Shown here: positions 659 through 45,113 of the stretch, piece by piece
How positions within the stretch are numbered: position 1 is the first letter of the stretch
Layout of the letters: each line of letters starts with the position of its first letter
Assembly: GCA_025454925.1 (NCBI GenBank)
Contig: JALONM010000021.1
Coordinates: 1 to 50,194, forward strand
Length of the DNA: 50,194 nt
Direction: 5' to 3'
Origin: Cytophagaceae bacterium
GTDB taxonomy: Bacteria; Bacteroidota; Bacteroidia; Cytophagales; Cytophagaceae
Translations under genes and position numbers: made by a program
The notes under the pieces: generated by a model
Told to the model about the DNA's origin: nothing
Databases searched by the model: none
Seen by the model: the letters and a program-made list of their open reading frames with translations, nothing else

Positions 659-741
659 GCCTAGATGGCGGAACTGGTAGACGCGCACGACTCAAAATCG
701 TGTTCCCTCGCGGAGTGTCGGTTCGATTCCGACTCTGGGTA
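659..741 (+). tRNA. tRNA-Leu (anticodon CAA)
   Basis: The 83-base sequence folds as a class II tRNA. The acceptor stem is GCCTAGA with TCTGGGT, and the discriminator is A741. The anticodon arm is CACGA-CTCAAAA-TCGTG, placing anticodon CAA at 693-695 (reads UUG). The variable arm is long (TTCCCTCGCGGAG) and the T arm contains GGTTCGATTCC. CCA is not encoded. A consensus promoter lies just upstream and a terminator just downstream, so it is a single-gene transcription unit. Confidence 0.96.
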
Positions 742-750
742 CGAAATAAA

Positions 751-34934: not shown

Positions 34935-35684
34935 ATGGGAATGATGGAATTATTTTCTAAACGATTATTAGTAAACTTGATTTTTATTATTTGCACAGGG
35001 ATGCATACCTGCTTTCTTTCAGCTCAGAATGTATCGGCTAATAATACAGGATTAAGGGCGACAGAGAAAGAAGTATTGTTTGTGGCATTTGTCACGGATT
35101 TAGACAAAGTCGCAGAAAAGGGTGTCGCTGTTTTAATAAAAAGCGAAGATAAATCGGTGACACGAAAAGGAATAACCGATATTGATGGACGCTATGTGTG
35201 TTTGGTGCCCAAGGGTAAAAAATACATGGTTACCGTGACAAAAACTTCTTATGATTTTAATTTTGTTTCCAACGTACCAAACGTAAAAGGCCCAGTTGAG
35301 TTTGTGCAAAATTATGTAATCAATTTATTTTTAGATTTCAAGCGTTCGTATGTATTGGATGCTGTGTATTTCGATCCTGGCAAAGCTGAAATCAAACCAG
35401 AATGTTTTTCTCCTTTGGATACCCTGGTTCTTACATTTCAGAATAATTCCAGATTCAGGGCTGAAATAGCGGGATTTACAGATAACGTAGGCAACGATAA
35501 TGAAAACATGCGTTTGTCGCAGCGTAGGGCCGATGCTATTCGTGATTACCTGATTAGCAAAGGCGTTCCAGCGCATCGTGTGTTGGCAAAAGGGTATGGT
35601 GAAAAATTCCCCATGGCCTCTAACGATACCGAGGTCGGAAGAACCAGAAATCGTCGAACTGAAGTAAAAGTAATACAGGAATAA
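34935..35684 (+). CDS. OmpA-family protein with carboxypeptidase-regulatory-like domain
   Basis: 249 residues. A signal peptide (about 1-30, ending CFLSAQ) is followed by a beta-sandwich like the CarboxypepD_reg fold (about 45-120: ITDIDGRYVCLVPKGKKYMVTV) and then an OmpA-like domain (about 140-249): VYFDPGKAEIKPE, IAGFTDNVGND, LSQRRADAIRDYL, GYGEKFP and NRRTEVKV. It would anchor the outer membrane or a surface complex to peptidoglycan. It follows the SprB-OmpA gene by 200 bases, but a strong terminator lies between, so it has its own promoter. A shared peptidoglycan-linked function is plausible but not shown. Confidence 0.9.
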   Translation: MGMMELFSKRLLVNLIFIICTGMHTCFLSAQNVSANNTGLRATEKEVLFVAFVTDLDKVAEKGVAVLIKSEDKSVTRKGITDIDGRYVCLVPKGKKYMVTVTKTSYDFNFVSNVPNVKGPVEFVQNYVINLFLDFKRSYVLDAVYFDPGKAEIKPECFSPLDTLVLTFQNNSRFRAEIAGFTDNVGNDNENMRLSQRRADAIRDYLISKGVPAHRVLAKGYGEKFPMASNDTEVGRTRNRRTEVKVIQE

Positions 35685-35709
35685 AAAAGGGGCTTGTAGC
35701 CCCTTTTTT
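35683..35709. terminator. Bidirectional terminator between OmpA and ABC-F genes
   Basis: AAAAAAGGGGC (35683-35693) pairs with GCCCCTTTTTT (35699-35709) with a five-base loop; A- and T-runs make it work for both convergent genes. Confidence 0.9.
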
Positions 35710-35730
35710 ATTCCTGATCTTGAAGAAAGA

Positions 35731-37371
35731 TTATTTGACTTTACGTTCAATATCTTTCAGGTTTTCCATTTTTTTGATTTTAAGGAATCCTGCAATATCA
35801 TAAAGGTGTTCTTTTACTTTCTTATTCCCAAATTCAAATACTTTCGTGGCTAGTCCATCCAGAAAATCTCGGTCGTGGGAAACAAGAATGACCGTTCCGT
35901 CAAAAGCTTTGATAGCATCTTTCAGGATATCCTTTGTTTTTATGTCCAAGTGGTTAGTCGGTTCGTCAAGGATTAAAAGATTTACTGGTTGCAGTAATAG
36001 TTTAATCATTGCTAATCGGGTTTTTTCTCCTCCGGAAAGGACTTTTACTTTTTTGTTGATTGCATCTCCACTAAACATAAAAGCTCCCAGTATGTCTTTA
36101 ATTTTTGTTCGAATTTCACCTACTGCAATATTGTCTATGGTTTCAAAAACCGATAATTCTTCATCCAGCAGCGAAGCTTGATTTTGAGCAAAATATCCGA
36201 TGATGGAGTTATGGCCAAGTTTCATGTTTCCTTCAAAGTCAATTTCTCCCATGATGGCCTTAATCATAGTCGATTTTCCTTCACCATTTCTTCCAACAAA
36301 GGCTATCTTTTCTCCCCGTTCAATAGTAAGATTGGCATCTGCAAACACCAGGTGATCCCCGTATTTTTTGGTAAGCCCTTCTACTATTACCGGATAATTA
36401 CCCGAACGTGGAGCAGGGGGGAACTTTAAATTCAATGCGGAGGTGTCGACTTCATCGACTTCAATGATTTCAATTTTTTCCAACATCTTTACCCTCGATT
36501 GAACCTGTAAGGTTTTGGAATAGGTGCCTTTAAAGCGTTCAATGAATTCTGTGATTTCAGCTATTTGTTTTTGTTGGTCATCAAATTGCTTTTGCTGTTG
36601 TTCCCTTCTTTCTTTCCGTAGTTGTAAGTAATGGGTGTAGGGGACTTTGTAGTCATAAATACGACCCATCGTTACTTCAATGGTTCGATTGGTGATTGCA
36701 TCTACAAAGGCACGGTCGTGGGAAATAACGATTACCGCTTTGGCTTGATTGATTAGGAAATCCTCTAACCACTGTATAGACTCAATATCCATGTGGTTGG
36801 TAGGTTCATCCAACAAGATTAAGTCTGGATTTTGAAGAAGTATTTTGGCCAATTCAATGCGCATTCTCCAGCCGCCGCTAAACTCGCTGGTGGGACGTTG
36901 AAAGTCACTTCTTAGGAACCCAAGACCTAAAAGTGTTTTTTCAACTTCTGAATCAATGTTTATATCTTCAATGGAATAATATTTTTCACTCAGGGAAGTT
37001 ACCTTTTCAATAATTTCCATGTATTCGTCAGACTCGTAATCGGTCCGTGTTTCCAATTGCTTGTTCAATTCTTCCATTTCAGTTTTCATGGAAAGAATAG
37101 CAGAAAATGCTTTGGATGTTTCTTCAAATACGGTGCATTGGTCATGAGTGAGCAAGTGCTGCGGAAGGTATGCGATAACAGCATCTTGAGGAGCTGAAAT
37201 TTTTCCACGCGTAGGTTTTTCTACACCGGCTATAATTTTTAACAACGTTGATTTGCCTGCGCCGTTTTTGCCCATTAAGGCGATACGGTCTTTATCGTTG
37301 ATATTAAAAGTTATGTCACTAAACAATGTTCTTCCGCTGAATTCTACAGCCACGGCATCTACTGATATCAT
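35731..37371 (-). CDS. ABC-F family ATPase (ribosome-associated type)
   Basis: 546 residues from the ATG at 37371 (MISVDAVAVEFSGRTLF); the frame runs further upstream but without a reasonable start. Two ABC domains lack membrane segments: Walker A GKNGAGKST and GRNGEGKST, signature motifs FSGGWRMRIELA and LSGGEKTRLAM, Walker B LILLDEPTNH and LLILDEPTNH. They are joined by the charged P-site tRNA-interaction motif linker (about 240-310). Family members act on ribosomes as translation factors or give resistance to ribosome-targeting antibiotics. Which role applies cannot be read from the sequence. Confidence 0.93.
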   Translation of the reverse strand: MISVDAVAVEFSGRTLFSDITFNINDKDRIALMGKNGAGKSTLLKIIAGVEKPTRGKISAPQDAVIAYLPQHLLTHDQCTVFEETSKAFSAILSMKTEMEELNKQLETRTDYESDEYMEIIEKVTSLSEKYYSIEDINIDSEVEKTLLGLGFLRSDFQRPTSEFSGGWRMRIELAKILLQNPDLILLDEPTNHMDIESIQWLEDFLINQAKAVIVISHDRAFVDAITNRTIEVTMGRIYDYKVPYTHYLQLRKERREQQQKQFDDQQKQIAEITEFIERFKGTYSKTLQVQSRVKMLEKIEIIEVDEVDTSALNLKFPPAPRSGNYPVIVEGLTKKYGDHLVFADANLTIERGEKIAFVGRNGEGKSTMIKAIMGEIDFEGNMKLGHNSIIGYFAQNQASLLDEELSVFETIDNIAVGEIRTKIKDILGAFMFSGDAINKKVKVLSGGEKTRLAMIKLLLQPVNLLILDEPTNHLDIKTKDILKDAIKAFDGTVILVSHDRDFLDGLATKVFEFGNKKVKEHLYDIAGFLKIKKMENLKDIERKVK

Positions 37372-37392
37372 ATATTGGTGTTGTTCGTGCTG

Positions 37393-37400
37393 CAAAGATA
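37393..37400 (-). promoter_or_regulatory. -7 box of the ABC-F gene
   Basis: CAAAGATA on the plus strand is TATCTTTG on the minus strand, an exact TAnnTTTG element 22 bases from the ATG. No clear -33 element. Confidence 0.45.
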
Positions 37401-37405
37401 AGGAA

Positions 37406-37438
37406 AGAATGGGAAATTTGATCTCATATTCCCATTCT
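37406..37438 (-). terminator. Hairpin after the aminotransferase gene
   Basis: AGAATGGGAA (37406-37415) pairs with TTCCCATTCT (37429-37438), 13-base loop. On the minus strand it is followed by TTTCCTTATC. It lies 25 bases after the aminotransferase stop and upstream of the ABC-F -7 box. Confidence 0.5.
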
Positions 37439-37462
37439 TCCTCAAGCATTATCCATCAATAT

Positions 37463-38644
37463 TTATTCATTCAAAACCTTTTTAAATAGATTTATACCCT
37501 TTTCTATTTCTTTAATACTTGATTTTGTGAAATTAAGCCGAATGGTATGAGGGTCTTTTTCTTTGGTATAAAAATGATGCCCTGGCACAAATACTAAATT
37601 TTCTTGCATGCATCGATGTAAAAGCCTTTCTGAATCCATGCGGTGGAGACGAGCCCACAAAAACATTCCTCCTTTTGCTTTTTCAATATTCAAGTGCTCA
37701 TGCAAGGGGGTTAATAATTCATACATACATTCCATTTGATGTTGGTAGCGATTTCGAATTTTCAACATCTGGGCGTCATACACATTTCGATGTAGAAGTT
37801 CTACTATGATTTCTTGCGATAAGCCATTGCTATGAAGGTCACTTGCTTGTTTCAATAATTTTAAAGAAGGGATAATTTCTCTTGGTGCTACGATCCAACC
37901 CATGCGCAATCCCGGACATAAGGTTTTGGAAAACGAACCCAATTGAATGGTTTGTTCTGGGAATAGCTCAAGCATACTAGGCAAGCGCTCTTCTTGAAAA
38001 CTGATGTCTGCGTAAGGCGCATCTTCAATGAGATAAAATTCTTTTCCCTGAGCGATGTTTCCTAATTCCTGACGCTTTTCCAGGCTGTATTGTGTTCCAC
38101 TGGGATTTTGAAAGTCAGGAATAAGATACATAAATGGAATGTGCTGTTCTTCACTCCAGAGTACTCGTTTCAATGATTCTATGTTGATGCCATCATTTTG
38201 TAGTGGAATTTCCAGAAACCGACTTTCGTATTGACTGAAACATTGAATAGCTCCAAGATAGGTTGGGCCTTCTACCAATACCGGCGTATTTTTATTCAGG
38301 AATAGTTTTCCAATTAGGTCCAATCCTTGTTGAGAGCCATTGGTAATTAAAATTTGTTCTTCATGTATGTCTGCGCCTTTTTGTTGGTATCTACGGGAGA
38401 TCCATTTTCTAAGGTCTGAATTTCCTTCAGTAGATTGATATTGCAAGCTTCTAGTCCATCGGTTCGAGTTTAAAGAGGAAAGTATATGAGTAATTTCTTC
38501 TATGGGAAATAAGGATTCATCCGGTATTCCTCCTGCAAAGGAAATTACTCCAGGACTTTGTGCAACTTGTAAAATCTCTCTTATAAATGAAGTGGGTATA
38601 TGTTGCAGGCGAGAAGCCAAATGTTGATGATGGTTCTGTTTCAT
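37463..38644 (-). CDS. PLP-dependent aminotransferase, class I/II (2-aminoadipate/LysN-like)
   Basis: 393 residues from the ATG at 38644. It opens with RLQHIPTSFIREILQVAQSPGVISFAGGIPDESLFP, written only in part here; the FAGGxPD motif is typical of the LysN/kynurenine/MocR-type group. ITNGSQQGLDLIGKLFLN binds the cofactor phosphate, PDFQNPSGTQYS and EDAPYADISF follow, and the PLP Lys is in LGSFSKTLCPGLRMGW. Broad-specificity enzymes of this clade act on aromatic, branched or 2-aminoadipate substrates. No GntR domain is attached. The neighbouring EamA exporter gene upstream suggests a link to amino-acid metabolism, which is inference. Confidence 0.9.
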   Translation of the reverse strand: MKQNHHQHLASRLQHIPTSFIREILQVAQSPGVISFAGGIPDESLFPIEEITHILSSLNSNRWTRSLQYQSTEGNSDLRKWISRRYQQKGADIHEEQILITNGSQQGLDLIGKLFLNKNTPVLVEGPTYLGAIQCFSQYESRFLEIPLQNDGINIESLKRVLWSEEQHIPFMYLIPDFQNPSGTQYSLEKRQELGNIAQGKEFYLIEDAPYADISFQEERLPSMLELFPEQTIQLGSFSKTLCPGLRMGWIVAPREIIPSLKLLKQASDLHSNGLSQEIIVELLHRNVYDAQMLKIRNRYQHQMECMYELLTPLHEHLNIEKAKGGMFLWARLHRMDSERLLHRCMQENLVFVPGHHFYTKEKDPHTIRLNFTKSSIKEIEKGINLFKKVLNE

Positions 38645-38708
38645 AAATAACAAGCGTTTTTTGGGATAAAGAAATATCGGCCCCTCGTAAAATTCTTTAC
38701 AGGGTGTG

Positions 38709-38753
38709 CAATTCCATTGAATGGAAGCGATTAGCTCTAAGTCAATGGAATTG
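38709..38753. promoter_or_regulatory. Inverted repeat with three AATGGAA half-sites
   Basis: CAATTCCATTGA (38709-38720) is exactly complementary to TCAATGGAATTG (38742-38753), 21-base loop. A third half-site makes TTCCATT-G-AATGGAA at 38712-38726. It lies between the EamA stop and the aminotransferase start, without a T-run, so an operator is more likely than a terminator. Confidence 0.4.
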
Positions 38754-38771
38754 TAGTATATGTATTGTTTA

Positions 38772-39671
38772 TTAAGAGTTTTTTGATTTGACCGATTCTA
38801 AATACCACATTAGAATCACTGCCCCAATAAGCAGGGCGGATGGAATGAGTAGTTCAGGGCTTAAAATTTTTTCACCTAACAGCAAACCCAATCCAATTGC
38901 AACCAATGGATTTACAAAAGAGTGCGTAGCAACGGCGTTGGCACTTACCTGATGGCAGAGGTAATTAAACGCAGTATAAGCAATGATGGAACCAAAAAGC
39001 ACCAGATAAATGAATGCATACCATCCTTCAGCTTTAATCGAGGAAGGTGAAAATTTTGCGTATTCTCCGGTAGCGAGCAATATCATTCCGCTCACCAACG
39101 AAGCGGTCATCATTTGTATGCAACTATTCCACCAGGGGGAAGGAGGAATGTCTAATCTCCGGGATAATATGGCTCCTAAAGCACCGGCAAAAGATCCGGC
39201 CAATAGTAAAAACCAATAGAGTGAAACGTTCGAATGGTCTTGTTCCATGCCATGCAGCAAGGCAATGCCTCCGGTTCCTAATGCGATTCCAATAAATAAA
39301 ATAATCGACATGCGTGTCCGGTCTACCAGATGATTCATCAAGGCGATAAATAATGGTTGACTGCACATTAGTAATGCAACCACACTGGAATCAAGGTATT
39401 GTTGGGCCCAAAGTATAGAAGAATTGCCGATCACAAAAAACAGAATGCCTAAGCCAATGGAATTATAGATTTGCGTCTTGGTAGGTGTTTTTTCTTTGGC
39501 CAAAAGAGCAATTAAAAATAATAGAAAGCTTGCGCAGGCCAGGCGCATGAATATTAATTGAAAGGGACTAAAGCTGTATAAGGCTGATTTTACTACCAGG
39601 TAGGTAGAGCCCCAAATGAAGTAGATACAGCCAAAATTGATAATTATCCAGTTTTTGTTATTCGTTTTCAT
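38772..39671 (-). CDS. EamA/DMT-family transporter, probable metabolite exporter
   Basis: 299 residues with about ten membrane helices in two EamA repeats: IIINFGCIYFIWGSTYLVVK begins the first, and YWFLLLAGSFAGALGAILSRR the second. VALLMCSQPLFIALMNHL and VATHSFVNPLVAIGLGLLLGEK are characteristic of the family. Members such as RhtA and YddG export amino acids. The long leader with an in-frame hairpin upstream suggests expression control by translation of a short peptide, consistent with an amino-acid link. The substrate itself is unknown. Confidence 0.88.
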   Translation of the reverse strand: MKTNNKNWIIINFGCIYFIWGSTYLVVKSALYSFSPFQLIFMRLACASFLLFLIALLAKEKTPTKTQIYNSIGLGILFFVIGNSSILWAQQYLDSSVVALLMCSQPLFIALMNHLVDRTRMSIILFIGIALGTGGIALLHGMEQDHSNVSLYWFLLLAGSFAGALGAILSRRLDIPPSPWWNSCIQMMTASLVSGMILLATGEYAKFSPSSIKAEGWYAFIYLVLFGSIIAYTAFNYLCHQVSANAVATHSFVNPLVAIGLGLLLGEKILSPELLIPSALLIGAVILMWYLESVKSKNS

Positions 39672-39687
39672 GGTCGTTCAAAAGTAA

Positions 39688-39711
39688 AAAGCCCGGAATT
39701 TTCCGGGCTTT
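39688..39711 (-). terminator. Hairpin with T-run just upstream of EamA
   Basis: AAAGCCCGG (39688-39696) pairs with CCGGGCTTT (39703-39711); on the minus strand it is followed by TTACTTTT and, 16 bases after the stem, the EamA ATG. It is a near copy of the hairpin at 39866-39891. Confidence 0.6.
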
Positions 39712-39749
39712 CTGGATTTCGAAACCGAATCCAATTTTCCCGGATACTA

Positions 39750-39962
39750 TTAGTAAAGAGGTTGACGTTTGCCTGGACGGCGCGCCAAATGCTGGCTACC
39801 AGCTTTCTGTGCATGAAGTTGACGGTTTTCATAAGGGTATTTTGGTTTGATTTGTTAAAATAAAAAAGCCCGGATGCAGGTCCGGGCTTTGAAGAAATGA
39901 AATAAATATTCGTTCATCATACGCACCGAACCTCTGATAAGCAGACTGCTGCTGCTTTCCAT
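39750..39962 (-). CDS. Candidate 70-codon leader ORF or small protein ahead of EamA
   Basis: ATG at 39962, stop TAA at 39752-39750. The product begins MESSSSLLIRGSVRMMNEY, then reads KPGPASGLFY across the terminator hairpin at 39866-39891, and ends in a very basic tail, HLARRPGKRQPLY. A second near-identical hairpin follows after the stop, and EamA after that. A candidate promoter at 40014-40044 would start the transcript about 45 bases upstream of the ATG. It could be a leader peptide for attenuation (Ser run, Leu-Leu-Ile early in the peptide) or a genuine small basic protein. I do not recognise a family with certainty. Confidence 0.5.
39866..39891 (-). terminator. Intrinsic terminator/attenuator inside the leader ORF
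   Basis: AAAGCCCGGA (39866-39875) pairs with TCCGGGCTTT (39882-39891) around a six-base loop. On the minus strand it is followed by TTTATTTT. It lies inside the 70-codon frame and about 115 bases after the presumed transcription start, the usual place for an attenuator. Confidence 0.7.
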
Positions 39963-40013
39963 AGGACGATATGTGATGTCATTGGTTTCATTTGATGAAT
40001 TTATTTTCGTTTA

Positions 40014-40044
40014 CAAAACAAGTAAAAAAGAATATGACTTTCAA
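40014..40044 (-). promoter_or_regulatory. Candidate promoter of the EamA leader transcript
   Basis: On the minus strand, TTG (40044-40042), a 20-base gap, then TTGTTTTG (40021-40014), one mismatch from TAnnTTTG. It lies just after the alpha-2-macroglobulin stop at 40059. Confidence 0.4.
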
Positions 40045-40058
40045 CTAGAATTATGAAT

Positions 40059-43000
40059 TTATTTTTTTGGTAGACTATTTTCTTGTATTTCGATCTTTAA
40101 TGGCGTATTCCAGTTTTTAAATTCTGCTGTATAATATAGATAAGCATAAGAGGCTTGCCCTTCAAAAGAACCAGGCATACAAGCTTTCAGGTCTAGTTGA
40201 AAAGATCGAATTTCAGAGGGTTTCATTTGACGGTAATACACAACTAATCGATTTCCTCTCAATTCATAAAAGTCTATTACTTGCTTGTCCTGTAATTCTT
40301 TAATCTGCCAGGCTTGTATTTGCAACCCCGCGGGTATGCCGATGCAGGCCATTGTCATTGGCAGTCCCTGAGTGCTGGTGTTTTGAACGGTACATTCAAG
40401 CCGAACTAATTCAGAGAGCTTGGCTGTATGTTTAGATAAACGACTGGATAAGATAACCTGGCATTCTTTATCTGAGCTGGGCTGGGTGGTATTCCATCCT
40501 ATAGTCATCGCATAGGGCAAGGCTTCACGGGTTTCTTCAAAAGTAAGCTGAACCAGATTTTCTCCTTCTTTCAGAAATTTTTCCATTCCGCTTATGCTCA
40601 AAATTTCTTTTTCTCCGGCTTGATAGATTTTCTTGCCTGCCAGTTGTTTGTTGATCCGAATGTTAATCTGGCCAGCTTCTTTGGTAGTCTTCATAACCGA
40701 TGCATAAGAGGTGAGTGCTTTGAGCGCCAGCACGGTAGCTTGCGTTGAACCAAATCCACCAAATCCACTTCGGTTTGAAATCAGGAACTTTATTCCCTTG
40801 TCAACAGAAGCTTGATGCAAACGATGAGGAAGGAGGGCCAATATAGCCAAGGCAGAAGTTTCAATTTCCAATGATTTTCCTCCGGATCGTGTGATTGAAT
40901 GGTCGGCTAGTTTCCATGAACCATCTTCTGCCTGTTGATTCTTTAGAACCTCGACCAACTTGGCGCTTCGCTGAATTTGTCCTGCATTGAATAAAGCAAT
41001 GGCGTTGAGTGCTAGCAAATACGAATCTTTTTTTCGAAGAGAGCGTTCTTCACTTACGGAAATTTCTTTTTCAATGTCTTGGTGAAAACCAGCTTCTGAT
41101 AAAGCAAACACAATGTATGCGTCCGTTACTTCTTCGCTGGCTCTGCCAAATTGATCCAAGGCTTGTTCGCTGCGCATAAATCCTCCCTGACCGTTTTTCC
41201 TTGATAACAACCATTTTGCCGTGCGCTCAATCATACGTTCATCCACTCCTGGGTAAATTTCTTTCATGTCCTGGAATTGCATCAGACCATAAGCTGTAAG
41301 ACCTTCATGTGCCGGACTTTGTCCGAACCACTCGTATCCTTTTGTCTTAGTTTCAAAGGAGGTTAATCGTTTATAGCCTCTGTCCAATAAATCGTCCAGG
41401 TATTTTTCTTTTTCAAACGATTGACCACTTTCTTTTAAATATTTTTTTGCCATTACATTGGGGTAATTGCTGGTTGAAGTTTGTTCGAAGCAACCATAAG
41501 GTTCCCGAAGGATCGATTCTACGCCGCTCATGAGGTCATTCATGACGTTGGGATAAGCATGGTAGGAAGTATACATTGATCCGGGAACAACATTGTTGAT
41601 GTCGAATCTGAATTCTTGCCTCAGTTCTTTTCCTGCCACCTGTACTTCCATTGGATAGCCCCGTGCTAGGACATTTAGTTTTTGTTTTACCACATCTGAA
41701 AATTGATTCGTTTGAATTTGAACCCGTATGCTATCAGATCCAGGATTGTTGGCTTTCATGTTCCAGTAAATTGTTTTTGATTCGTTGGCATTGACTGAAA
41801 CCTGCATGGTAGCTTGTGGGCTAGTCCAGTTGGATGGTAAACTCATAGTTACCTCACAAGGCAATGCTGAGGCGGTGTTGTTCCGAATCAAAACAGGTAA
41901 CGACAAGTGATCGCCCTGTGTACATTCGGAGGGCGCTTGAAATTGTACTGATAGAGGAAGGGTGGTGGTATAGTTTTTTACGGCACTTCCTGGCAGTCCG
42001 TCATGAGAGATTCCTTCGATATAAATCCGATACGAAGCTACCTCGTCTGAATTATAAAATTGGGTGGTGTATTTTCCTGTACGGTCTACCAATATTCCGC
42101 CTGACCAAAATATAGTGTTTCGAAAATCTCTTCGATCTGATTCCGATAATGGAGCTGGCTTTTTAATTTCAAACACTCGAGCTCTGTAATACGGAGTATT
42201 TTCAGGATTTTTGATGTCTTCATATTCTCTAAGGATTCTCGGTTCAAATTCAATAATGGTGTCGGCTGCGATTGCCCTCATTTTGGGTGCCATGGCCACT
42301 GGCTTGATTTCAGCTTTTGATTTGACCGCCAAGCCCATGTTGTTTTTTTTATTCATCCGTACTTCTGCGTTCTTCATGGGAACCAATGGGGCCTGCACTA
42401 CAATATTTCGCTCTGCTTGATCCATTTTCATCAATTCATCCTGTACACCTCCCATGGGAGCCATTTCTAAATGTCGGCGATGCATACCAAAGAGATAGGT
42501 CATCGTTTGCTCTCCGTATTCACTGATATGGATGGACGAATATCCAAGCCCACTTTGTTCAATCTTCATCAATATGGGTTGGTAGAGTTCTATGCCGCTC
42601 AGTTGGTAATGACCTTGAGCATCGGTTACTGCGATTTTTTTTCCATCGATGGACAATAAAGCTCCTACGGCTGGTTGGTTGGTATTGCCATTCATAACAA
42701 TACCTGTGATGATGGCTTTTTCTGGGGCTTGCACAAATTTTTTTACTTCACCTTCGGTAATTTGCTCCCAGGTAAATCTTCTCCATCCTTCGGTAAGCAA
42801 CAAAGCATTCAATGCTTCATCAGCTTTCGTTTCTTGTGGATCAAAATAAAATCCTGGTTTTTCTAAACTGCATGTTAATTCTTGTTCCAATAGCAGAGAA
42901 GAAAGCAAATGGGAGGGATGCTCACTGATTTCTTTGAATATGGATTCTTTCACTACAGATACCCCAAGTGACGCAGGAACAGGCAACCCTCGTTCATCTT

Positions 43001-44384
43001 TAACTTGAACTTGAACGGTTACTTTTTCTCGAGGCTGGTACGATTCTTTATCCGTTTTAATTTCTATTGAAATTTTTTTGTGCTTGTTAACAAACATCAA
43101 TCGTTCTGATCTTGCAATTCCTTTGGAGTCCACCAAGGTGAGTTGATGAATACCTATTGGCAGCATTGCGGTAGGAATGTTAAAATGATTTTCACCGGCA
43201 ACTATTTGATATGATTTAGTCCATTGCAATTGATTGCGGCAACTTAATACAGCAAATACGCTATCGCGAAGGGTGGAAAAAACAGAAACAGAAATATTTT
43301 CATGGTGCACCTTGCAATGCATAGCAAAACCACCAACAGCGCTGCTAACTTCTACTGGAATTCTTTGAACGGTAGGTTTTTGTATTTCTACTTCCATCCG
43401 ATCTCCTTCTTTTATTGTAATAGGGAAATAGCCTCTTCCCTGGTGAATAGAATGGAATTGACCAACTTCTTTATTGTTGATCAATACAATGCCAGATACA
43501 TCCTGAAATGCTCCAGAAGCGCTAAAGGCCTTAAATGCTAAATGACATGGAACGCCGTAAATCAAGTCGCCACCTTCGGGATAAAACCTCATGCTTACTT
43601 TTTTTACAGATACTGGAACGCGTCGTGTATAGGAATCGGCCTGGCCAAAGCGATTCCAGGATAGCGTTAATAAAACATCTTCGGAGCTTAAATCCGACGG
43701 AATAGAGATTGGTAATTCTGTTTTCTGAGCTTCAGTTTGGATCGTTTTGCTGCTTACGATTTTGGAATCTATTCGTAATTCACATGTTAGTTTCGTTTGA
43801 ATATTTTTTAGTTGTTGGTCTTTCATTTCAAATGCATAGGTACCAGACTCTCCTGGATTAAATGAAGATTTAGAGAAGACTCCTTGAATCATAACTTCCG
43901 GCATAATGACATCTTGCACCTGAATGGTTTTTTCTACAAAACTGCTGTCGTTTTCCTGGTACGAAGTCCAAACTTTTATTTTGTATAAACCACCAGGCGC
44001 TTCTTCTGCCAGCTTAAAGTCTCCGTTCGCAATTCCTTTTTTGGCAATCAAACGAATCGATTTTTCTTTCACACCTTGAGGATTGATTAAATCAGCATAC
44101 ACTATGTCACTGAAATGGGAGGTGCTTAAGTCAGAGTCTTTACGCAAATAGGCTGTAAACCAAATGTCATCTCCCGGTTCTGCTATTGGTTTATCGAGTT
44201 GAATATATATGCGTTCCCCCATTGATTGAGTGCTGTAAAATTCCCATCGTTGCAGCAAAGGCCCCATCAATGGGTGATTCATTAAACCGTTCCATCGACC
44301 AGAGAAATAAAAGTGTTGTGTAGCCATGAGCATACTTCCAATAAGCAAGGCAAGTATCCAATAGAATCGTGAGTTAGATTTCAT
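40059..44384 (-). CDS. Alpha-2-macroglobulin-family protein with thioester
   Basis: 1441 residues from ATG 44384 (MKSNSRFYWILALLIG), which gives a normal N-terminal signal or anchor; the open frame extends 39 codons further without a signal. Order: anchor (about 8-30), macroglobulin domains starting YIQLDKPIAEPGDDIWF, an inserted carboxypeptidase-regulatory-like domain (about 558-622, ITGIVMNGNTNQPAVGALLS), the A2M domain near 765, and the thioester loop YGCFEQ (Cys965-Gln968) in an alpha/alpha toroid, then a C-terminal receptor-like domain. Bacterial A2Ms trap proteases in the periplasm. No pbpC partner is adjacent. It is divergent from an ECF sigma gene. Confidence 0.88.
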   Translation of the reverse strand: MKSNSRFYWILALLIGSMLMATQHFYFSGRWNGLMNHPLMGPLLQRWEFYSTQSMGERIYIQLDKPIAEPGDDIWFTAYLRKDSDLSTSHFSDIVYADLINPQGVKEKSIRLIAKKGIANGDFKLAEEAPGGLYKIKVWTSYQENDSSFVEKTIQVQDVIMPEVMIQGVFSKSSFNPGESGTYAFEMKDQQLKNIQTKLTCELRIDSKIVSSKTIQTEAQKTELPISIPSDLSSEDVLLTLSWNRFGQADSYTRRVPVSVKKVSMRFYPEGGDLIYGVPCHLAFKAFSASGAFQDVSGIVLINNKEVGQFHSIHQGRGYFPITIKEGDRMEVEIQKPTVQRIPVEVSSAVGGFAMHCKVHHENISVSVFSTLRDSVFAVLSCRNQLQWTKSYQIVAGENHFNIPTAMLPIGIHQLTLVDSKGIARSERLMFVNKHKKISIEIKTDKESYQPREKVTVQVQVKDERGLPVPASLGVSVVKESIFKEISEHPSHLLSSLLLEQELTCSLEKPGFYFDPQETKADEALNALLLTEGWRRFTWEQITEGEVKKFVQAPEKAIITGIVMNGNTNQPAVGALLSIDGKKIAVTDAQGHYQLSGIELYQPILMKIEQSGLGYSSIHISEYGEQTMTYLFGMHRRHLEMAPMGGVQDELMKMDQAERNIVVQAPLVPMKNAEVRMNKKNNMGLAVKSKAEIKPVAMAPKMRAIAADTIIEFEPRILREYEDIKNPENTPYYRARVFEIKKPAPLSESDRRDFRNTIFWSGGILVDRTGKYTTQFYNSDEVASYRIYIEGISHDGLPGSAVKNYTTTLPLSVQFQAPSECTQGDHLSLPVLIRNNTASALPCEVTMSLPSNWTSPQATMQVSVNANESKTIYWNMKANNPGSDSIRVQIQTNQFSDVVKQKLNVLARGYPMEVQVAGKELRQEFRFDINNVVPGSMYTSYHAYPNVMNDLMSGVESILREPYGCFEQTSTSNYPNVMAKKYLKESGQSFEKEKYLDDLLDRGYKRLTSFETKTKGYEWFGQSPAHEGLTAYGLMQFQDMKEIYPGVDERMIERTAKWLLSRKNGQGGFMRSEQALDQFGRASEEVTDAYIVFALSEAGFHQDIEKEISVSEERSLRKKDSYLLALNAIALFNAGQIQRSAKLVEVLKNQQAEDGSWKLADHSITRSGGKSLEIETSALAILALLPHRLHQASVDKGIKFLISNRSGFGGFGSTQATVLALKALTSYASVMKTTKEAGQINIRINKQLAGKKIYQAGEKEILSISGMEKFLKEGENLVQLTFEETREALPYAMTIGWNTTQPSSDKECQVILSSRLSKHTAKLSELVRLECTVQNTSTQGLPMTMACIGIPAGLQIQAWQIKELQDKQVIDFYELRGNRLVVYYRQMKPSEIRSFQLDLKACMPGSFEGQASYAYLYYTAEFKNWNTPLKIEIQENSLPKK

Positions 44385-44510
44385 AGTAACATCGTTTCCT
44401 CTTAGATGCCTGCCGAACCTAAAATCCATAAACACATAGGCCCAAATTTCAATTTCTTTTGTTAATACTTGAAAATGAAAAAGATAATTTAGTATCTTCA
44501 AGCATCTTGT

Positions 44511-45113
44511 ATGAAATTGTTCGGAAGAAATAAAACTGTTAAAACGGATTTGGAACTCTTGGCTGAATTTCGGCGAAGTGGCTCGTTGGAAGTTTTAGCG
44601 GATTTATTTTTACGCTATAATCACTTGGTTTTAGGTGTTTGTTTTAAATATCTGAAAGATCCGGAGGCCAGCAAAGACATGACCATGCAAATATTTGAAA
44701 AGCTTACGTATAAGTTGCCTCAATTTGAAGTAAGCAACTTTTCAAGTTGGTTGCATACGATGGTTCGTAATGAGTGTTTGATGGAGTTAAGAAGAAGAGC
44801 GCAACGTTCCGATTCCGAGAGACTTGAAGTGGGGGATGAAAATTCTGAATTTCGCACTATGGAATTTTCAATAGCGGAGCATCCAACAGAAAATGATTCA
44901 TTAGAAGGTGATTTGTCCAAGTTAGAAGAATGTATTCAAACCTTGGCATCGGAACAGCGGGTTTGCGTAGAGTTATTCTTTTTAAGAGAAAAGTGTTACA
45001 AAGAAATTACGGAAGAAGTGGGATTTGATTTAAAAAAAGTAAAAAGCTATATACAAAACGGAAAACGGAACTTGAAAATATGTATGGAACGAAAATTGGT
45101 TGAATCGAAATAG
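44511..45113 (+). CDS. ECF-type RNA polymerase sigma factor
   Basis: 200 residues. Region 2 is visible as FLRYNHLVLGVCFKYLKDPEASKDMTMQIFEKL (about 31-63, quoted in part elsewhere) followed by FSSWLHTMVRNECLMELRRR; region 4 lies at about 140-195, ending KEITEEVGFDLKKVKSYIQNGKRNL. It is the Bacteroidota ECF type without a zinc-binding domain. Its stop is three bases from the start of the next gene, so they are translationally linked. The 9-base overlap of promoters with the A2M gene and the shared 126-base region make A2M a candidate target. Confidence 0.9.
   Translation: MKLFGRNKTVKTDLELLAEFRRSGSLEVLADLFLRYNHLVLGVCFKYLKDPEASKDMTMQIFEKLTYKLPQFEVSNFSSWLHTMVRNECLMELRRRAQRSDSERLEVGDENSEFRTMEFSIAEHPTENDSLEGDLSKLEECIQTLASEQRVCVELFFLREKCYKEITEEVGFDLKKVKSYIQNGKRNLKICMERKLVESK

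Follow-up and report, generated by a model that had tools for sequence, protein, structure and literature searches.

Does the long leader of an EamA-family transporter gene in a Cytophagaceae genome sense translation, and through which of its short reading frames? The original prediction, for a window of 50,194 nucleotides (the whole stretch of DNA analysed), was of an attenuator-like leader ahead of an exporter, and this reading is supported, with a different peptide and a different geometry from those claimed. The leader ORF A, its R2 segment and the hairpin T1 probably form a ribosome-mediated (leader-peptide) transcription attenuator of eamA, with ORF2 and the hairpin T2 as a possible second layer.

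EamA/DMT transporters are widespread, many of them with no known substrate or signal, and a leader reporting the stalling codon or drug would give a direct handle on the cargo of an EamA pump. The available text on Flavobacterium psychrophilum gives strong indications that amino-acid biosynthesis operons there have leader-peptide attenuation upstream of them (PMC9723704), and that on B. thetaiotaomicron describes 5' UTRs with short ORFs that resemble leader peptides (PMC7366714); an EamA leader would add transporter genes to this repertoire. For a 2010 survey of premature terminators, a word search of the main text gave neither 'Bacteroidetes' nor 'EamA' (PMC2965389), and in literature searches joining leader-peptide attenuation with EamA or Bacteroidota names, the titles and abstract openings among the matches listed held no EamA leader-peptide attenuator.

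Anatomy of the eamA leader

The transporter gene (38772..39671, minus strand, as are all features of the leader) encodes 299 amino acids matching PF00892 at 102.5 bits and the NCBIfam YedA profile at 170 bits, under its cut-off of 270; no similarity to PDB chains was found at E ≤ 0.01. The eamA leader is 388 nt long, and a candidate promoter (40014..40044, minus strand; TTG-N20-TTGTTTTG) was scored against TAnnTTTG, which we take to be the -7 motif of Bacteroidota and from which it differs by one mismatch. The leader ORF A (39917..39991; 24 codons, MKPMTSHIVLWKAAAVCLSEVRCV, stop TGA) holds in its last codons the candidate antiterminator segment R2 (39923..39932; GGTTCGGTGC), complementary to the 5' arm of T1 (39865..39890; AAAGCCCGGACCTGCATCCGGGCTTT plus a T tract), a predicted intrinsic terminator whose stem lies 26 nt downstream of the leader A stop. 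Beyond T1, ORF2 (39668..39832; 54 codons) contains the candidate T2 antiterminator R2' (39739..39744; TCCGGG within the conserved CCGGGAAAA) and runs through the terminator-like hairpin T2 (39688..39711; AAAGCCCGGAAAATTCCGGGCTTT), which ends 16 nt upstream of the EamA start, and its stop overlaps that start as ATGA. A short ORF followed by an intrinsic terminator is placed in the 5' leader of eamA, with which it would be transcribed jointly. This arrangement and its complementarity, like the recurrence before other EamA genes, are read directly from the sequence, from which we infer promoter activity, termination, antitermination, pausing and coupling.

The two minus-strand hairpins with a common AAAGCCCGG stem that had been predicted ahead of EamA were confirmed (39890-39865 and 39711-39688, before the gene at 39671-38772), with a start-to-start distance of 177 nt. 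A consensus terminator scan called T1 and not T2, and a second, in-house scanner called both. The 4.52-Mb genome of this organism contains the pattern AAAGCCCGG-N2..12-CCGGGCTTT three times, two of them being T1 and T2; because the stem is so rare, the likeness of the two hairpins does not derive from a common genomic terminator type, an explanation that was rejected for the exact stem.

The candidate sensor frame differs from the one first proposed. A 70-codon ATG frame running straight through the first hairpin does not exist, having been assembled from three pieces of two frames joined across a stop. Its MESSSSLLI... beginning belongs to a frame of 35 codons (ATG 39962, stop 39855) that ends in the T tract of T1; the KPGPASGLFYF stretch, assigned to it by way of T1, lies in the other frame, in which the first ATG (39832) comes only past T1; and the RRPGKRQPLY tail is in the MESSSS frame but beyond its stop. 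The short reading frames of importance here are leader A, this 35-codon frame and ORF2. Leader A was preferred to the MESSSS frame because comparison with G010, the one ortholog found, supports leader A: the MESSSS frame has no counterpart there, and only one ATG/GTG/TTG frame of at least 8 codons overlaps the G010 T1, beginning with a GTG located 3 nt upstream of that hairpin. The four serines at the predicted start are an out-of-frame reading of GCA GCA GCA GTC (AAAV) in leader A, and a serine sensor based on them was rejected as lying in the wrong frame. The proposal that translating ribosomes open the first hairpin fails for T1, which leader A ribosomes do not cross, and fits T2, which lies inside ORF2.

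Downstream of EamA is a class I/II PLP aminotransferase gene (37463..38653, minus strand), which is possibly co-transcribed with it; in G010 the aminotransferase does not adjoin EamA, and the gene that follows is presumably GlyA-like. The aminotransferase (38653-37463) looks like the PLP domain of a MocR-type regulator that lacks the N-terminal part, matching NCBIfam PdxR at 228 bits, under the cut-off of 320, over profile positions 91-447. Near the window start is a tRNA-Leu gene (anticodon CAA; 659-742, plus strand).

Pairing of R2 with the T1 arm

The duplex of R2 with the 5' arm of T1 has a computed energy of -17.0 kcal/mol, a value reached by 2 of 500 shuffles, and by this computed pairing the antiterminator and the terminator are mutually exclusive. 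In a selection-free test, a fixed zone from 75 to 10 nt before each stem was scored against the 5' arm with 300 dinucleotide shuffles each, for the 44 terminators that the scanner gave for 160 EamA genes plus the window and G010. The window R2:T1 pairing reached -14.4, equalled by none of the 300 shuffles. Where no long frame ended in the 150 nt preceding an EamA-upstream terminator, 12 of 15 terminators had p ≤ 0.033 (median 0.007). Among these 12, L195 lacks a short ORF and four come from closely related species of a single genus; the other three of the 15 were the T1 of G010 (0.10), L105 (0.14) and the T2 of the window (0.30). None of the 29 terminators that follow long frames had p < 0.05 (lowest L131, 0.053; median 0.28). 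L117, L132, L159 and L162, which were counted as leaders by peptide likeness and not by this test, fall within the 29 and are individually non-significant (0.12-0.34).

In a cross-pairing matrix over 10 lineages, R2 zones averaged -15.8 kcal/mol with their own T1 arm vs -10.2 for cross pairs (0 of 100,000 permutations), and only 7 of the 15 rows had the own arm as the best of the 15; its rows were chosen partly on pairing, so that the matrix is biased and the selection-free test is the one to trust. A specificity census covered 1.46 Mb from three genomes and gave 213 intergenic terminators, 83 of them no more than 450 nt upstream of a gene. When these 83 were scored, the three EamA leaders of the sample ranked 4th to 6th by pairing energy, behind L238 (a terminator right after a gene), L263 (a tandem Cys leader) and L239.

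These pairings bear on the view that T1 and T2 are ordinary terminators, T1 ending an upstream or independent small transcript and eamA having a promoter of its own. T1 begins about 170 nt after the macroglobulin gene stop, as such a terminator might, and by eye a sequence fitting the assumed TAnnTTTG, TACTTTTG, lies between T2 and the EamA ATG. However, no TTG box was seen by eye at the right distance from TACTTTTG, a transcript starting there would have almost no leader given the 16 nt between T2 and the ATG, and R2 pairing exceeds shuffles here and in relatives but not after long frames. We regard ordinary terminators as quite unlikely, although the fit to TAnnTTTG before the ATG, together with a weak T tract in the T2 of G010, slightly lowers trust in the attenuator and raises it in this explanation.

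Conservation of the layout in an ortholog

EamA relatives were sought in the family (19 genomes) and in samples from the order (390 genomes) and the phylum (395 genomes), and the one close relative of the window EamA found there is G010 (49-50% identical). Its parts are in the same order, namely a leader ORF (MLNNSLHKASRIAVALCEMPVRTLCKK), R2, T1, an ORF2 of 51 codons, T2 and the ATGA overlap. The layout of T1 and T2 is kept, with differences in detail: the leader and T1 sequences of G010 are different (T1 AGGCCTCCTGACG...), the T tract of the G010 T2 is weak, and the in-house scanner does not call that hairpin a terminator. Both R2 and its T1 partner have changed, from GGTTCGG:CCGGACC in the window to GTCAGGA:TCCTGAC in G010. 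This change in both partners, with the layout kept, would be compensating, and comes from a single ortholog whose pairing (-12.2; 0.184 of shuffles, and 0.103 in the selection-free test) is not significant alone.

Recurrence before other EamA genes

The 160 EamA genes comprised 50 of 50 matches of the L005 type and 110 of 114 of the C100 type (G041, G056, G114 and G121 were left out, their N-terminus being unmatched). Inspection of the scanner output revealed similar leaders before 15 of these genes of the order, six of the L005 type (L075-L078, L100 and L143) and nine of the C100 type (L105, L117, L124, L125, L128, L132, L159, L162 and L165). L105 is a second EamA in the genome of the window (contig C100); for five other EamA matches of that genome, among them L022 with its uncertain gene start, no such leader was seen by eye and the scanner gave no terminator within 450 nt upstream. 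No such leader was detected before the remaining 145 of the 160 relatives, a point in favour of ordinary terminators.

The leaders scored further were 15 in number, namely the window, G010 and 13 of the 15 relatives, L076 and L077 having been set aside as near copies of L075 and L078. A complete TAnnTTTG occurs within 70 nt upstream of the leader in 6 of the 15, against 0.76 expected, the window having one mismatch there and G010 two. R2 lies at -10 to +19 nt from the short ORF stop in 15 of 15, partly by construction as the search zone was set around the stop; the zone was left free in other leader scans, including that of the EamA relatives.

The proximity of R2 to a stop, subject to this construction, argues against a riboswitch, T-box or protein-bound leader acting independently of translation, to which the strong fold of the leader region (better than 100 of 100 shuffles, z -3.8) might otherwise point. 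The 22 Rfam matches in 35000-45000 included none at gathering score (highest 33.1 bits vs 99), and a translation-independent leader appears very improbable.

Ribosome position and the proposed switch

For the ribosome-mediated attenuator, partial transcripts up to the T1 loop were folded by ribosome A-site position in the 15 leaders. In the window, 8 R2:R3 pairs form while the A site is at any of codons 3-16; the number falls to 4.5 at codon 17 and 1.8 at codon 18 and is 0 from codon 19, and the antiterminator is lost before the stop in 15 of 15 leaders. In these foldings the position of the ribosome on leader A therefore masks or frees the antiterminator.

RNA polymerase would start just upstream of leader ORF A. 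Were leader A translated to its stop, the terminating ribosome would cover R2, the T1 arms would pair and transcription would end; a ribosome paused at or before about codon 16 would leave R2 free to pair first with the 5' arm of T1, allowing transcription into eamA. Candidate causes of such a pause are slowing of the ribosome by a drug, shortage of a charged tRNA, e.g. tRNA-Trp (the Trp codon of the window leader A is codon 11), and a small molecule acting on the nascent peptide. T2 would then be passed only if ribosomes translating ORF2 melted it or, less surely, if R2' paired with a T2 arm, and the ATGA overlap would couple translation of ORF2 and EamA. That overlap alone is weak evidence, since its TGA follows from the ATG-AAA start of EamA.

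In transcripts that carry no ribosome the leaders differ. R2 is hidden in two (L117 and L132) and largely hidden in three (L125, L159 and L165), all five resembling classical attenuators, and L128 is intermediate. In the other 9 of the 15, including the window and G010, the antiterminator stays largely intact, so that failed initiation on the leader ORF would also give read-through of T1. T2 would close without ORF2 translation and may thereby add to T1 when initiation fails.

The geometry of leader stop, antiterminator and terminator is that of the trp/leu-type amino-acid leader attenuators, from which the window differs in having no codon run, no biosynthesis operon and no predicted protector pairing that hides R2. 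TnaC has 24 residues, a Trp near position 12 and a final Pro, and works through Rho termination; leader A shares the 24 residues and the Trp near position 12 but has no final Pro and is followed by an intrinsic terminator. A TnaC-like arrest at the stop codon was rejected on geometry, as a stall there would close the switch.

The signal and the EamA subfamilies

The signal was examined through the codons of the leader peptides. Of the 15 leaders, 10 carry an in-frame TGG positioned 12-30 nt upstream of R2, and by lineage the count is 6 of 10, compared with 1 and 0 of 10 for the other two frames; the binomial value for this position is 6e-5, for a range picked after the leaders were seen. For Trp the total is 6 where 2.9 would be expected (Poisson 0.07); Cys shows as much enrichment (6 vs 2.1; 0.018), and Ile (24 vs 12.9) and Leu (28 vs 19.2) are also raised. 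All 9 C100-type leaders have this TGG, as opposed to none of the 4 L005-type leaders scored (L076 and L077 are also without Trp); of the window-type leaders, the window has it and G010 does not. C100-type EamA matches the aromatic exporter YddG weakly (E 4e-10; 39.7 bits vs a cut-off of 300), and L005-type EamA passes the YedA cut-off (273.9 vs 270), but neither match settles what the leader senses.

The division of TGG between subfamilies and the YddG match, far under cut-off as it is, favour a true amino-acid attenuator, in which shortage of one charged tRNA (often Trp; Cys or branched-chain elsewhere) would turn the transporter on. Amino-acid attenuation in the form originally predicted is not upheld: leader A has a single Trp codon and three Ala in a row, no single-codon run longer than that, and no Ser run in the supported frame. 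G010 lacks this Trp codon, and an exporter induced by starvation would be odd unless it imported or expelled a synthetase inhibitor. A true amino-acid attenuator is thus doubtful.

It is possible, though short of probable, that leader A senses ribosome-targeting drugs instead, drugged ribosomes pausing in it and turning on a drug exporter, as with bmrCD and mef(E). EamA resembles the drug/metabolite exporter YedA, under cut-off in the window and above it in a relative with a leader, and the layout of ORF2 and T2 is that of bmrB; the leader peptides, however, vary. From the available text on mef(E)/mel, the likeness lies in a leader peptide, an antiterminator and a Rho-independent terminator before an efflux gene, and the difference in the 8-residue MTASMRLR needed there for macrolide induction, a sequence absent here (PMC4335068).

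ORF2 and the second hairpin

The layer formed by ORF2 and T2 may be functional, through a mechanism that would depend on ORF2 being translated. A small protein gene bracketed by two terminators had been offered as an alternative, and ORF2 lacks the protein-level conservation this would lead one to expect. Over the last 25 codons including the stop, comparison with G010 showed 1 synonymous and 15 non-synonymous codon changes, with substitutions at codon positions 1/2/3 of 10/10/6. ORF2 had no Pfam or NCBIfam match and no convincing homologue past G010 in the 19 family genomes (next matches E 0.007 and worse). A conserved small protein was rejected on these grounds; in this comparison the peptide is fast-evolving, without sign of purifying selection. 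An ATG frame of at least 48 codons, however, occurs in only 0.0105 and 0.010 of shuffles for the two genomes. Two RNA elements, CCGGGAAAA and the T2 hairpin, are conserved between the window and G010, and the CCGGG of R2' lies 26 and 27 nt before the T2 stem (window and G010), its pairing with the T2 arm being no better than shuffles (0.158 and 0.386).

A terminator inside a small ORF directly before an exporter gene, the bmrB-type arrangement, is present in the window, with a weak T tract in G010. In bmrB-bmrCD of Bacillus subtilis, as described in the available text, a 53-codon ORF contains a terminator and its translation is needed for efficient, inducible read-through (PMC4191407). ORF2 is alike in length (53 aa vs 54), in its position right before an exporter gene and in its internal intrinsic terminator; the window differs in having a separate leader ORF and terminator (leader A and T1) first and an EamA rather than an ABC transporter. 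In mgtCBR of Salmonella, two short ORFs and two attenuators likewise share the leader of one transporter operon, according to the part of the article available, the signals there being ATP and proline, whereas in the window ORF2 runs through the hairpin and overlaps the transporter start (PMC3641672).

Together the two layers could form a two-step gate, T1 opening with leader A paused or untranslated and T2 only during translation of ORF2, so that the transporter would be made only when one codon is slow and translation is otherwise running, e.g. if one charged tRNA runs low because of a synthetase inhibitor or a metabolite. Such a gate, with the pausing codon matched to the EamA subfamily, is unlikely and is offered as speculation.

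Other leader-like sites

The third AAAGCCCGG stem of the genome is a hairpin at C118:31763-31786 (L012:1356-1526), directly 3' of a 48-codon frame (MRANKTIYTKRSDKRF...YYE) and followed by a short frame that ends after 97 codons and is possibly RtcB-like; the candidate antiterminator at this site is weak (-9.6, 0.55 of shuffles).

At L263:16110-16529, minus strand (G015:C19:791110-791529), two attenuator-like leaders that contain paired Cys codons (MILIQNIFFFCCSPDFIRPEEDLY and MTFTYSHTFCCFIIHSSV) stand in tandem, each with a terminator hairpin after it, and a tRNA-Cys gene (anticodon GCA) lies downstream of both. This gene could be regulated by the codons that it reads. Both leaders, with their Cys pairs, are conserved in G017, where the alignment fails inside the tRNA and no tRNA was found.

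A leader-like ORF (MKQQSIFNIFKSLKRSGNPLCFFRDCCY) with an AAAGCCCGGA hairpin, whose pairing is -12.1 (0.108 of shuffles), lies between RlaP and Hen1 at L010:1407-1547 and L263:10253-10393 (G015:C19, about 785,250-785,390), both on the plus strand. The RlaP-Hen1 RNA-repair gene group continues with a Pnkp-ligase gene.
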